In this document: in pieces, positions 13,923-39,149 of the stretch | Position numbering within the stretch: position 1 is the first letter of the stretch | How the letters are laid out: each line of letters starts with the position of its first letter | Assembly: GCA_015061805.1 (NCBI GenBank) | Contig: SUVV01000004.1 | Coordinates: 62,001 to 126,000, forward strand | DNA length: 64,000 nucleotides | Source of the DNA: Lentisphaerota bacterium | Lineage (GTDB): Bacteria; Verrucomicrobiota; Lentisphaeria; Victivallales; Victivallaceae | Reading direction: 5' to 3' | Made by a program: the position numbers and the translations under genes | Notes under the pieces: generated by a model | Told to the model about the DNA's origin: nothing | Database searches by the model: none | Seen by the model: only the letters and a program-made list of their open reading frames with translations

Positions 13923-14927
13923 TTACTTGATTTTAATACTCTTTTGTGTGCCTTGTCTCGGCAAAATATAGGCAGTGATCTGGTCACCGCGTTTTTTCAC
14001 TTTTGCCGCGATCAAGTCTTTGGCACATTCGCCGTCATTAAGAGCGCCGACATGACCATCGCCAAAAGCAACATTGCAGCGTTTATTGTGTTTTAACCAG
14101 AATTTCCCACGGCTGCTGTAGCTGCTTTCGGCAGGTTTGAGAATTCTGTAGTCATACGTTTTCTTGGAAGTGGAACTGTACAGTCCGGTATCCGCCAGCA
14201 GAATATGCTTGGAACCGACATGTCTCAAAATGTAATAACCGGGAGGACCTCCTACATAAAACTCACCGTTTTTCCAATACGATGCATTACCGGACATCAA
14301 GCCGTAGGCGTTGGAGTTGTCATCTCTCCATCCGATCGGCGACGGGCAGCGTATATATTTGGTCCTCATGAATTCCGTACTGGCTCTTTTCTTCCAGTAC
14401 CCCTGATTCACCATGTAATCCCACCAGGGATAGTTGGAGTTGCTGGTAGGTTTGGTCACCCAGAGTTCATTGTTGTCATCCGCATACAAACGTATCACCT
14501 GATAGGTCGTTTTCAAGCGGTTTTGACATTCGGTAGTCATACCGCGCTCACGGGCTTTTTGTAATGCAGGCAACAGCATCGCCGCCAGAATAGCAATGAT
14601 AGCGATGACAACCAGCAGCTCAATCAGCGTGAACGCTGATTGAATGAAGCACGGCTTTGCCGTATGAAGCATTTGCCTGCGGCAAATATGAAGCGCACTG
14701 TCTGTGCATGAAGCGCTTGCTTTGCAAGCATTATGGGGTACCCCCAAAGCCGGTTTCTGCGGCGCTTTCCTCCGTACTTTTCCGTACCTATCCGTACACA
14801 TCCGTACCAACGCGCCGCCCCCTGCGGCTTGCATACCGGTACGGTTATACAGAACTTTTACATGATTACGGCAATATTGTGCGATGACAACCAACAGTTC
14901 GATCAGAGTAAAACGCTTTTTACACAT
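13923..14927 (-). CDS. Prepilin-like protein interrupted by a 279-bp in-frame unit
   Basis: The product begins MCKKR then [11 protein letters not shown], the leader-peptidase site and start of a type IV pilin helix. It then departs into about 80 unrelated, Cys- and Arg-rich residues and resumes with a second [21 protein letters not shown], followed by a normal pseudopilin body ending with an H-X9-DG motif ([10 protein letters not shown]). The two FTLIELL-coding stretches (14602-14633 and 14881-14912) are 279 bases apart, 27 of 32 bases identical, so the frame is kept. The first ATG has GGAGG four bases upstream. The insert would break the membrane helix, so normal function is doubtful. It precedes the DUF4838 gene in one operon. 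Confidence 0.75.
14621..14744. repeat. Array of short hairpins separated by ATGAAGC inside the prepilin gene
   Basis: Five small palindromes in a row: CAATCAGCG/TGAA loop (14621-14642), ACGGC/TTT (14651-14663), ATTTGCC/TGC (14671-14687), GCAC/TGTCT (14695-14707) and GCTTGC/TTT (14715-14729). ATGAAGC separates neighbouring palindromes (AATGAAGC after the first). The palindrome GGGGTACCCC (14735-14744) follows. The first hairpin uses prepilin coding sequence as one arm. A further run of four GTACGGA-type 10-base repeats lies at about 14770-14808. The same grammar occurs at 38909-38991. Confidence 0.85.
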
Positions 14928-14940
14928 AGTGCCTCCCCAC

Positions 14941-15000
14941 TGTTTATAAACAATAAAATGTGTTTATAAATAATATGTGCCAAACCGCGTTTTTTGCCAA
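14941..15000 (-). promoter_or_regulatory. Promoter and TGTTTATAAA direct repeats of the prepilin operon
   Basis: On the minus strand TGCCAA on the plus (15000-14995, read TTGGCA), 17-base spacer and CATATT (14977-14972). Two copies of TGTTTATAAA, at 14941-14950 and 14961-14970, are exactly 20 bases apart, on the same helix face, just downstream of the -10. The first is part of the perfect palindrome TGTTTATAAACA. A repressor site over the start point is a reasonable guess; the protein is unknown. Confidence 0.5.
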
Positions 15001-15084: not shown

Positions 15085-15208
15085 AATGACGTGGACTTAC
15101 GGACTGGCACTTGGGGCTGAGAATACTATGGGAGCGTTAAATTACGGGCGACGCGCCCATCACGGACAATTGGAGCAATTTGTATAATAACACTTGTGGA
15201 GTCGGGGG
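15085..15208 (+). repeat. Dispersed intergenic repeat, copy 2
   Basis: Same family as 10785-10985. The core GTTAAATTACGGGCGACGCG and the tail TTGGAGCAATTTGTATAATA match copy 1 closely. It lies between the prepilin operon promoter and the end of the RND pump gene and runs into the terminator-like hairpin. Confidence 0.75.
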
Positions 15209-15232
15209 CAATATTCCCCCGACTCCACAAGT
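15192..15232 (-). terminator. 17-bp perfect stem-loop after the RND pump gene
   Basis: Arms ACTTGTGGAGTCGGGGG (15192-15208) and its exact complement (15216-15232) with a 7-base loop, 12 bases beyond the RND stop codon. There is no U-run, so intrinsic termination is uncertain; it may act as an mRNA 3' end stabiliser. Confidence 0.5.
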
Positions 15233-20800: not shown

Positions 20801-21220
20801 TCCGCACCAACCGCTCGCGAAGGGCGCGTTGCACGTAATTTAACGCCCTCCCACAATCTCTCAAAATCTCCCACAGCCTCTCAATACTCCCACCCCAAAG
20901 CGCCAGTCAGCAAGCCCGCTCTATTTACAAACCTCAAACCGCGCGGCTCCAACCGCCCGCGAAGGGCGCGTTGCACGTAATTTAACGCCCTCCCAAAACT
21001 CTCACAATCTCCCACAGCCTCTCAATACTCCCACCCCCAAGTGCCAGTCAGCAAGCCCACTTGGTTTACAAACCTCAAACCGCGCGGCTCCAACTGCCCG
21101 CAAAGGGCGCGTTGCACGTAATTTAACGCCCTCCCAAAACTCTCACAATCTCCCACGGTCTCCCAATCCTCCCACCCCAAAGCGCCAGTCAGCAAGCCCA
21201 CTTGGTTTACAAACCTCAAG
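20801..21220 (-). repeat. Tandem array of three ~141-bp repeats (dispersed family)
   Basis: Three successive units with anchors (GGGCGCGTTGCACGTAATTT) at 20822, 20964 and 21105, so periods are 142 and 141 bases. Units differ at scattered positions. Read on the minus strand each unit carries GTTTGTAAACC, TTGCTGACTGGC, a run of GGGAG boxes, GTTAAATTACG and a GCGCCC-GGGC hairpin. Copies in opposite orientation are at 10785 and 15085. Units are too long and contain no spacer pattern, so this is not CRISPR. Confidence 0.9.
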
Positions 21221-38721: not shown

Positions 38722-39149
38722 TATTGTGGGGAGGGGAAAAACCTCTTTTCACGAGAAAAGAGGCCGAACGTCGGCCTCGGTATATTCCCTCCCCACACCC
38801 CACCCCTTTTCGAGAAAAGCGAGGTATTTTGCTCCCGACTTGTCCCGCCACAGCTCCTTGAGCGACGGCGGATGGTCGCAAAGCGAAAAATAATTTATCA
38901 CATCCATACTCGCGCAAGCGAGCGCTTCACGTTTGCCAAAGGCAAACTCTTCACATTGCAAAGCAATTCTTCACGACGGATGAAATCCGTCTCTTCACAT
39001 CCACCACCCCACCCCTTTTCGAGAAAAGCAGGGATATGTTTTGCTCCAGTTTGTCGCAAAACGAAAAATAATTTATCACATCCATACTCGCGCAAAGCGA
39101 GCGCTTCACGTTTGCCGCAGCCGGACTTCTGTCGCGGCACGCAGTCAAC
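38722..39149. repeat. Hairpin-rich interspersed repeats, copies 2 and 3, with mini-hairpin array
   Basis: No gene. Copy 2 begins directly after the rarA stop: GTGGGGAGGG (38726-38735) pairs with 38787-38796 around nested hairpins (38742-38763 and 38760-38778). CACCCCACCCCTTTTCG and AATTTATCACATCCATA follow. Then a row of four palindromes, CTCGC/GCAA (38909-38922), GTTTGCC/AAA (38931-38947), ATTGC/AAA (38955-38967) and GACGGAT/GAA (38975-38991), is spaced by CTTCAC-ending spacers. Copy 3 (39003-39115) repeats the CACCCC..., AATTTATCAC... and CTCGC parts. Confidence 0.88.

Follow-up and report, generated by a model that had tools for sequence, protein, structure and literature searches.

In-frame hairpin repeats land at one spot near the start of pilus-type genes of Lentisphaeria and end with a fresh copy of the motif they interrupt

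Why should a prepilin-like gene carry its N-terminal motif twice, with a long hairpin-rich stretch between the two copies? The question is raised by an open reading frame of 334 amino acids with an ATG start at 13923..14927, on the minus strand of the window, by which we mean the whole 64,000-nucleotide stretch of DNA analysed here. Its product is of the prepilin or pseudopilin type. Profile searches matched it to the Pfam model N_methyl (PF07963) with 32.5 bits against a cut-off of 21.2, to TIGR02532 (IV_pilin_GFxxxE) with 33.8 bits against 16.3 and, weakly, to TIGR04294 (H-X9-DG) with 20.0 bits against 19; a Pfam scan of the protein up to E = 10 gave nothing besides N_methyl and no Hint splicing domain. 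By eye, a Shine-Dalgarno-like GGAGG lies upstream of the ATG at 14932..14936 (minus strand). A perfect palindrome, TGTTTATAAACA, at 14941-14975 just upstream of the gene, with a near copy 20 nt further along, is a candidate regulator site, and a strong terminator-like hairpin of 17 pairs (15192-15232) stands between the pilin gene and the next open reading frame upstream.

The 11-residue prepilin motif occurs first at 14880..14912, as located from the sequence, the repeat tool and codon mapping, and again at 14601..14633, as located by codon mapping and the family models, both on the minus strand; we refer to these as the left (host) copy and the right copy. They are direct repeats in the same frame, spaced by 279 nt and 84% identical over 32 nt according to the repeat tool, and have GCGATGACAACCA in common. 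The best stretch of both the N_methyl and the IV_pilin models falls at residues 96-119, which is the right copy, and the full prepilin helix continues only from this copy and not from the left one. Within the right copy FTLIELL is of an element type and VVIA is host-like, running on into the intact N-terminal helix. A preliminary description of this DNA had reported a motif doubled in frame at a distance of 279 nt with hairpin-rich sequence between, and open reading frame, repeat and folding analyses confirm it as real (the fold of 14600-14927 outscores 98 of 100 shuffled versions, z = -2.6). Two of its figures need amendment: the differences between the copies are all silent, as it stated, but when the codons are read over the full 33 nt (27/33 identical) they number six instead of five, and the stretch between the two 11-residue motifs, which is open in frame, comprises 82 residues (246 nt) and not 85.

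Prepilin peptidase cuts off whatever precedes the motif, as is established for this protein class, and a Peptidase_A24 gene is present in the window's own genome, at G000:C22. In prepilins a Gly is expected directly before the cleavage site. The residue before the F is A at the right motif of the window gene (QSA^F) and R at its left motif; it is G in just 3 of 46 uninserted pilin relatives.

By codon mapping the insert extends over 14613..14879 (minus strand), starting behind the left VVIA and taking in the element-type FTLIELL that opens the right copy, its left end being less certain than its right; the repeat unit of 279 nt also counts one 12-nt VVIA, which lies beyond this interval. Read along the minus strand, to which all of the following belong, it contains four GTACGGA units 10 nt apart (14771..14807), seen in the sequence and, by genome search, as a module that is also dispersed in the genome, and then a chain of hairpins. 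Hairpin 1 is GCTTGC-AAA-GCAAGC (14715..14729), hairpin 2 GCAC-AGACA-GTGC (14695..14707), hairpin 3 ATTTGCC-GCA-GGCAAAT (14671..14687) and hairpin 4 ACGGC-AAA-GCCGT (14651..14663), the third and fourth being read from the sequence. Hairpin 5, evident both in the sequence and in alignments, forms the right end, TCAATCAGCG-TTCA-CGCTGATTGA (14620..14643), and its 3' arm is the FTLIE coding sequence.

A protein search with the 334-residue query found matches in 34 of 34 genomes of the genus, mostly at pilin N-termini, and inserts were present on genes with other C-termini in several genomes, including G004, G005, G008, G009, G011, G016, G025 and G027. The window insert is 241/246 and 240/246 nt identical (98%) to those of two genes in G005, the mature parts of which are 47% and 44% identical to that of the window gene and the upstream 300 nt 51% and 44%; the insert of a third G005 gene is identical at 213 of 246 positions. 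The preliminary description had pointed to related genomes as the place to look for this insert at the start of other pilin genes, and it is indeed found there, so that chance can be dismissed as the source of the doubled motif. Nor is the gene product a normal conserved protein, the other possibility it had raised: among the 34 genus genomes the 334-residue protein is not conserved, the N-terminal insert recurs on other proteins, and single-linkage clustering at 50% identity divides the 162 distinct mature regions that follow a right end into 145 clusters.

When up to 2 mismatches were allowed, the pattern of the right-end hairpin gave 203 matches in 18 of the 34 genus genomes, and 0 with the reversed control; the window's own genome has 1 of these matches and G016 has 68. 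A sample of 387 genomes spread over the phylum, searched with up to 1 mismatch, has the pattern in 20, which belong to 5 genera in two families of a single order. At least 106 stretches of the named genome collection carry it; among the 80 matches listed all titles are of Lentisphaeria or Lentisphaerae MAGs, and the sources stated among the matches listed are the gut of sheep, roe deer and yak. An exact match to the repeat was not found in viral_contigs. The window insert itself, used as a query against its own genome, had 35 matches, its own one counted; the 19 others that were fetched are hairpin chains of the same design or GTACGGA repeats, and a scan by expression found the pilin motif at none of these 19 loci. 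Adjacent pilin genes, one with an insert and the other without or with a different one, were seen at L061, L077 and L085.

Many copies, in G016 and in other assemblies, lie about 100 nt from contig ends, which suggests that the repeats interrupt metagenome assembly and that the true copy numbers may be higher. The same tendency, in assemblies that are metagenomic throughout, is what could be said for an assembly chimera of two pilin genes. That explanation is scarcely credible, since the window copy lies well inside a contig of 165 kb and in-contig copies with the frame kept occur in many genomes and in several named assemblies.

The inserts are of several types, mostly with 147 to 285 nt between motif starts, and have a common design, in which chains of small hairpins are joined by GCTTCAC or GCTTCAT. 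The last hairpin across the inserts is TCRATCAGCG-TTCA-CGCTGATYGA, with the FTLIE codons forming the 3' arm; its variable pair, scored in 127 copies, is A-T in 62, G-C in 55, G-T in 9 and A-C in 1. In alignments 100% of cells are paired in 18 type B inserts and 98.8% in 21 type C inserts, falling to 24-43% in both types when the partners slide by 1 to 3 columns. All four inner hairpins of the window insert have a matching slot in type C: that of hairpin 1, matched by eye, is 98.4% paired, and that of hairpin 2 is 98.1% paired, 3 of its 5 pairs showing double changes. Both partners have changed in 4 of 22 pairs of type B and in 7 of 33 pairs of type C, against shuffled means of 1.5 and 4.3, with 3 and 7 of 500 shuffles respectively as high, in a test whose shuffles leave relatedness in and for which the search pattern partly determines hairpin 5. 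The number of pair types is not above that of the shuffles (4 vs 4.4 in type B, 12 vs 11.8 in type C). Types A and B have one slot where hairpins that differ greatly take each other's place, and 19 of the 22 distinct versions have at least 7 perfect pairs. Differences between insert copies are spread over the three codon positions with no third-position excess, and counts of variants in the inserts agree with this. Taken together with the covariation, this suggests that the feature conserved in the inserts looks to be the hairpin structure rather than the peptide.

Conservation of hairpins by compensatory change, in a reading frame that is maintained, would also be expected of a leader that benefits the host, in which a hairpin chain in the 5' coding region controls pilin translation or mRNA stability and is kept for that. 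We consider this improbable, because the inserts are patchy (the 1 match of the own genome against the 68 of G016), a near-identical gene without the insert exists (L024, see below) and different sequences occupy the same joint. Rfam at the gathering score likewise had no match in the five loci searched (L308, L002, L014, L001 and L067), one of which holds the window gene; a cobalamin riboswitch in the 5' region of L308 is for the same reason unsupported.

Related sequences were seen elsewhere in the window and its genome. At 38910-39120 an intergenic-looking hairpin chain of the GCTTCAC type (38925-38990) is followed by the beginning of a second, with the pilin motif absent nearby. A tandem array at 20807-21219 (period 141 bp, 2.9 copies, 93% matches) resembles by eye the arrays in L005, L006 and L008, which also hold the GTACGGA module. 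Short leaders before FTLIELL, such as RHAGVKHAC, are found in the own genome at L317, L318, L324, L328, L329, L339 and L340; by eye they look like small palindromes, the right half of which is like the GCTTCAC spacer. The GCTTCAC spacer of the hairpin chains may be derived from the pilin start itself.

We located the joint between repeat and host by comparing the codons of 91 left copies, 163 right copies and 47 uninserted pilins. The right copies stand apart from the uninserted genes at codon 2 (ACG in 160/163 against 8/47), codon 3 (CTG, 161/163 against 19/47), codon 6 (CTA, 66/163 against 0/47) and codon 7 (TTG, 95/163 against 7/47), and are like them at codon 8 (GTG, 28/163 against 12/47), the uniformity of the right copy and of hairpin 5 being partly imposed by the search pattern. 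The same right end was present in 28 doubled-motif genes found by protein search, with a query that itself contained that end. The left copies are host-like at codon 3 and shifted at codon 2 (ACG in 39/91 against 8/47, p = 0.0024), with a marginal shift at codons 6 and 7 (CTA at codon 6 in 8/91 against 0/47, p = 0.051), perhaps because some of them are right copies of an earlier insert; at codon 8 they have GTG in 64/91 against 12/47. Codon usage thus suggests that the element begins at about codon 8 and ends at about codon 7, carrying FTLIELL along, and the joint seems to lie near the junction of L7 and V8, with FTLIELL contributed by the element and VVIA by the host.

The type to which the window insert belongs (type E, of which 5 copies were analysed) differs at its left end in that VVIA is kept before the insert. 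In 4 of the 5 genes codons 8-10 are common to both motif copies although the genes themselves differ, which looks like a short host duplication, in a sample of five where no single position is significant and 2 of 120 possible pairings match as well. Agreement of codons 8-10 between left and right copies reached no p below 0.05 at any position in types B/C (52) and D (15), and in type A (15) two positions had p values of 0.045 and 0.029, uncorrected; a target-site duplication as the general rule for all types is not supported by the codon agreement in A, B/C and D. The earlier suggestion that the doubling is no simple target duplication consequently holds for codons 1-7 of the right copy, which are of the element type, and may not hold for codons 8-10 in type E, which look host-duplicated.

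The 198 distinct right-end copies in the loci analysed run into a pilin helix in 195 cases, 165 of them directly, 28 after a further insert and 2 (L151 and L208) by eye, this count applying to relatives with the FTLIEL codons that the pattern contains, since others elsewhere would be missed. L151 and L208 were among four right ends that had been scored as lacking the helix, and one further copy is cut. Looser hairpin chains occur between genes. The right motif is exact in 191/198 copies and Glu5 is kept in 198/198, the right side being favoured by the search pattern. Upstream, 142 copies are uncut; the left motif is present in frame in 105 of them, degenerate but in frame in 19 (some of which may be chance resemblance) and not recognisable in 18, so some leaders must have arisen by replacement or later loss. 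Where a left motif is recognisable it is exact in 102 of 122 copies, with Glu5 kept in 116.

Since the left motif was sought in frame, an insert length that is a multiple of three is no evidence of frame maintenance, and the independent test is a search of the other two frames for the left motif. Two copies had an out-of-frame motif besides the in-frame one and no copy had an out-of-frame motif only; none of the 37 copies without a strict left motif has a motif beyond an in-frame stop. Variants that create a stop are 8 in frame 0 against 19.9 expected, and 16 against 14.2 and 21 against 17.7 in the other frames, as scored on inserts that had been chosen as open. These results bear on the possibility that translation restarts inside the insert, giving a leader of normal length and leaving the upstream half as dead sequence. 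In the window insert an ATG does precede the right motif by 39 nt, and by eye a weak AGG stands ahead of that ATG. Types A, B and D, however, have in the sequences examined no Met close to their right end, the upstream part too stays in frame, and stop variants are depleted in frame 0 but not in the other frames, with the bias towards open inserts just mentioned, so that a restart appears quite improbable.

The reading that we prefer, with a probability of roughly 0.7, is that the 279-nt unit is a non-autonomous, hairpin-rich repeat of a family that inserts near the junction of L7 and V8 of F1-T-L-I-E-L-L-V in many unrelated Lentisphaeria prepilin genes and is tolerated by rebuilding the cleavage motif. 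At its 3' end the repeat brings its own FTLIELL codons, which make up the 3' arm of its last hairpin, and the inserted gene reads, with the frame kept, host FTLIELL(V), insert, FTLIELL and host VVIAIIAIL. All that lies upstream of the right copy, the translation of the insert included, would become a long leader removable by prepilin peptidase. We infer that an insertion whose right copy restores the motif for processing and for the helix would be nearly neutral to the mature protein, provided that the insert keeps an open frame. The suggestion, made from the window alone, that an element had landed where such genes are most conserved gains support from the recurrence on unrelated mature parts, from an empty/filled pair and from serial copies.

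The pair consists of L024 (in G027) and L176 (in G020), which align closely where the upstream gene ends, along most of the leader and in the body of the pilin; a single additional insert of type A, 147 nt long and with a doubled motif, is present in L176 and absent from L024, and the leaders also differ by one further upstream indel, which holds GTACGGA units. L249 and L266 have mature parts 97% identical and homologous upstream regions, with different inserts. The mature part of another inserted gene, used as a query, gave 14 matches in 13 of the 34 genomes, homologs that are 43-100% identical and for which orthology is not established in all cases. L308 and L309 are empty, with MHNCTLFKGK directly before FTLIELL, L299 and L300 carry single inserts, L298 carries a double series and L301 and L305 triple series. 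L307 has MHNCTL and an upstream region in common with L308, together with a long repeat-derived leader that is without a left motif, for which reason L307 and L308 were dropped as empty/filled proof of the doubled motif.

Some of these homologs suit a different explanation, leader shuffling, in which homologous crossovers within the FTLIELL codons join the upstream region of one gene, with its intergenic hairpin repeats, to the body of another, the doubled motifs being by-products and no element existing as such. L152 and L260, with a mature part 92% identical, dissimilar upstream flanks and different inserts, are as this explanation would have it, as are L197, L255 and L142, where only the right-end hairpin is present in a short leader, L307 with its long repeat-derived leader and no left motif beside L308 with its short one, and the intergenic chains of the same design in the genome. 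Against it, the same fixed-end insert types turn up in many hosts, in both classes of repeat (see below) the left joint shows at codon 8, and L024 and L176 differ by a single whole insert between closely matching flanks. As a full account we regard shuffling as rather unlikely, but the right-end-only leaders and the different upstream flanks of L152 and L260 suggest that leaders are at times replaced as well. Recombination between two pilin genes, as the preliminary description had it, is thus not needed for the origin of the doubled motif and may be how the repeats spread.

For the inserted repeats of our preferred reading, spread could proceed by recombination through the FTLIELLV common to many pilin paralogs or by a putative hairpin-recognising enzyme. 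We favour, on weaker grounds, the first route, with dozens of paralogs offering FTLIELLV. Y1_Tnp was found in 11 of the 34 genomes, which are incomplete, and was not found in the copy-rich G020 and G027, incomplete genomes also; a Y1 transposase or RAYT was rejected as the mobiliser because it shows no association with the copies among the 34 genomes. The sole match in the own genome, L181 (G000:C29:20906-21220), is a Y1 transposase remnant with three stop codons.

Repeats of other sequence occupy the same joint. The own genome has 43 pilin N-terminal matches, and at 13 of the 30 loci fetched FTLIELL is preceded by a different repeat as leader, with the end ..SREKKFFPSPIKP, ..SREKKFPLSPAH.. 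or the like. Repeats of other sequence were grouped as class P, which was set by a loose expression and lumps at least two kinds of leader; judged by eye, it is unrelated to the repeats of the first family. The right copy of class P has its own codons (codon 4 ATA in 23/31 against 3/47 uninserted, codon 3 TTA in 18/31 against 1/47), and its left copies have GTA in 9/17 and GTG in 8/17 at codon 8. At L121, L123, L124, L126 and L127 a class P repeat lies inside the right copy of the first family, at the same joint. Repeats of different sequence thus follow one insertion rule. Within the other leader repeat of the own genome a further piece, ..LFLSGKRAASEVSRPSRWSGLIESLKNTPLFL.., was seen in frame once or more (L319, L323, L325, L330, L331 and L334), as though yet another repeat had entered and made a duplication of its own.

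In inteins, insertion is into a conserved motif and the protein product is removed after translation. The pilin inserts are alike in that they sit in a conserved motif and their product may be removed after translation; they differ in that no splicing domain was matched and in that removal, if any, would be the leader cut of the host prepilin peptidase and not a splice. A broader view, which we advance tentatively and which may well prove wrong, is of selfish DNA sheltering behind a host peptidase: it would insert only at the prepilin processing motif, carry its own copy of that motif and have its product cut off, being intein-like and self-erasing with no encoded enzyme. Different repeat families would have arrived there independently, and stacking, decay of the outer copy and recurrent gain would make pilin leaders a growing, reversible insertion array.

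Several known kinds of repeat resemble these inserts in part. Rickettsia palindromic elements (RPE), as described in passages of PMC10969869, are repeats of ∼150 bp in several families that often lie in frame in protein genes, including unrelated metabolic genes. On that description the likeness is of an in-frame palindromic repeat within coding genes; the pilin inserts, in contrast, keep to one gene class (195/198 right ends) and one codon joint, their end recreates the host motif, and the copies stack serially. REP elements are, in passages of PMC3733652, dispersed hairpins with a short conserved foot, sometimes inside open reading frames. Dispersal and an occasional position within open reading frames are common to both, but REP repeats of the kind that goes with RAYT tyrosine transposases are tagged by GTAG/CGTC whereas the pilin inserts have GCTTCAC/GCTTCAT spacers between different hairpins, and no consistent Y1 transposase accompanies them in the repeat-bearing genomes. 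MITEs, which according to a passage of PMC10969869 can form in-frame fusions with open reading frames, are similarly small, non-autonomous and multi-copy; the pilin inserts differ in having a fixed target in coding sequence, and a parent insertion sequence was not found. PARCELs are presented in passages of PMC2996958 as palindromic coding repeats thought to move within genomes, built of tandem 25-residue motifs with conserved hydrophobic residues, whereas the pilin insert peptide is without codon-position constraint. Coding palindromes are also described in nematomorph mitochondria, in passages of PMC6649704. None of the passages on RPE, REP, PARCEL and the nematomorph palindromes mentions a fixed insertion joint with a motif-restoring end. 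The open full-text literature gave no description of such prepilin inserts, preprints and most subscription papers being outside its scope. We accordingly place the prepilin inserts with the in-frame palindromic repeats, the fixed joint and the motif-restoring end being what is new.

In these ruminant gut bacteria, in-frame hairpin repeats land at one spot near the start of many different pilus-type genes. Each closes with a new copy of the interrupted signal, which leaves the functional part of the protein intact. In-frame palindromic repeats within genes are known, and here a rule by which cells tolerate them looks readable from the sequence: the protein is probably cleaved at that spot in any case, and the insert supplies the cleavage motif anew. 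Empty, filled and stacked homologs are available for the study of gain and loss, and the annotated N-termini of many Lentisphaeria pilins should be treated with caution, being repeat-derived. The family offers a testable case of a mobile repeat that uses a protein-processing step of its host.
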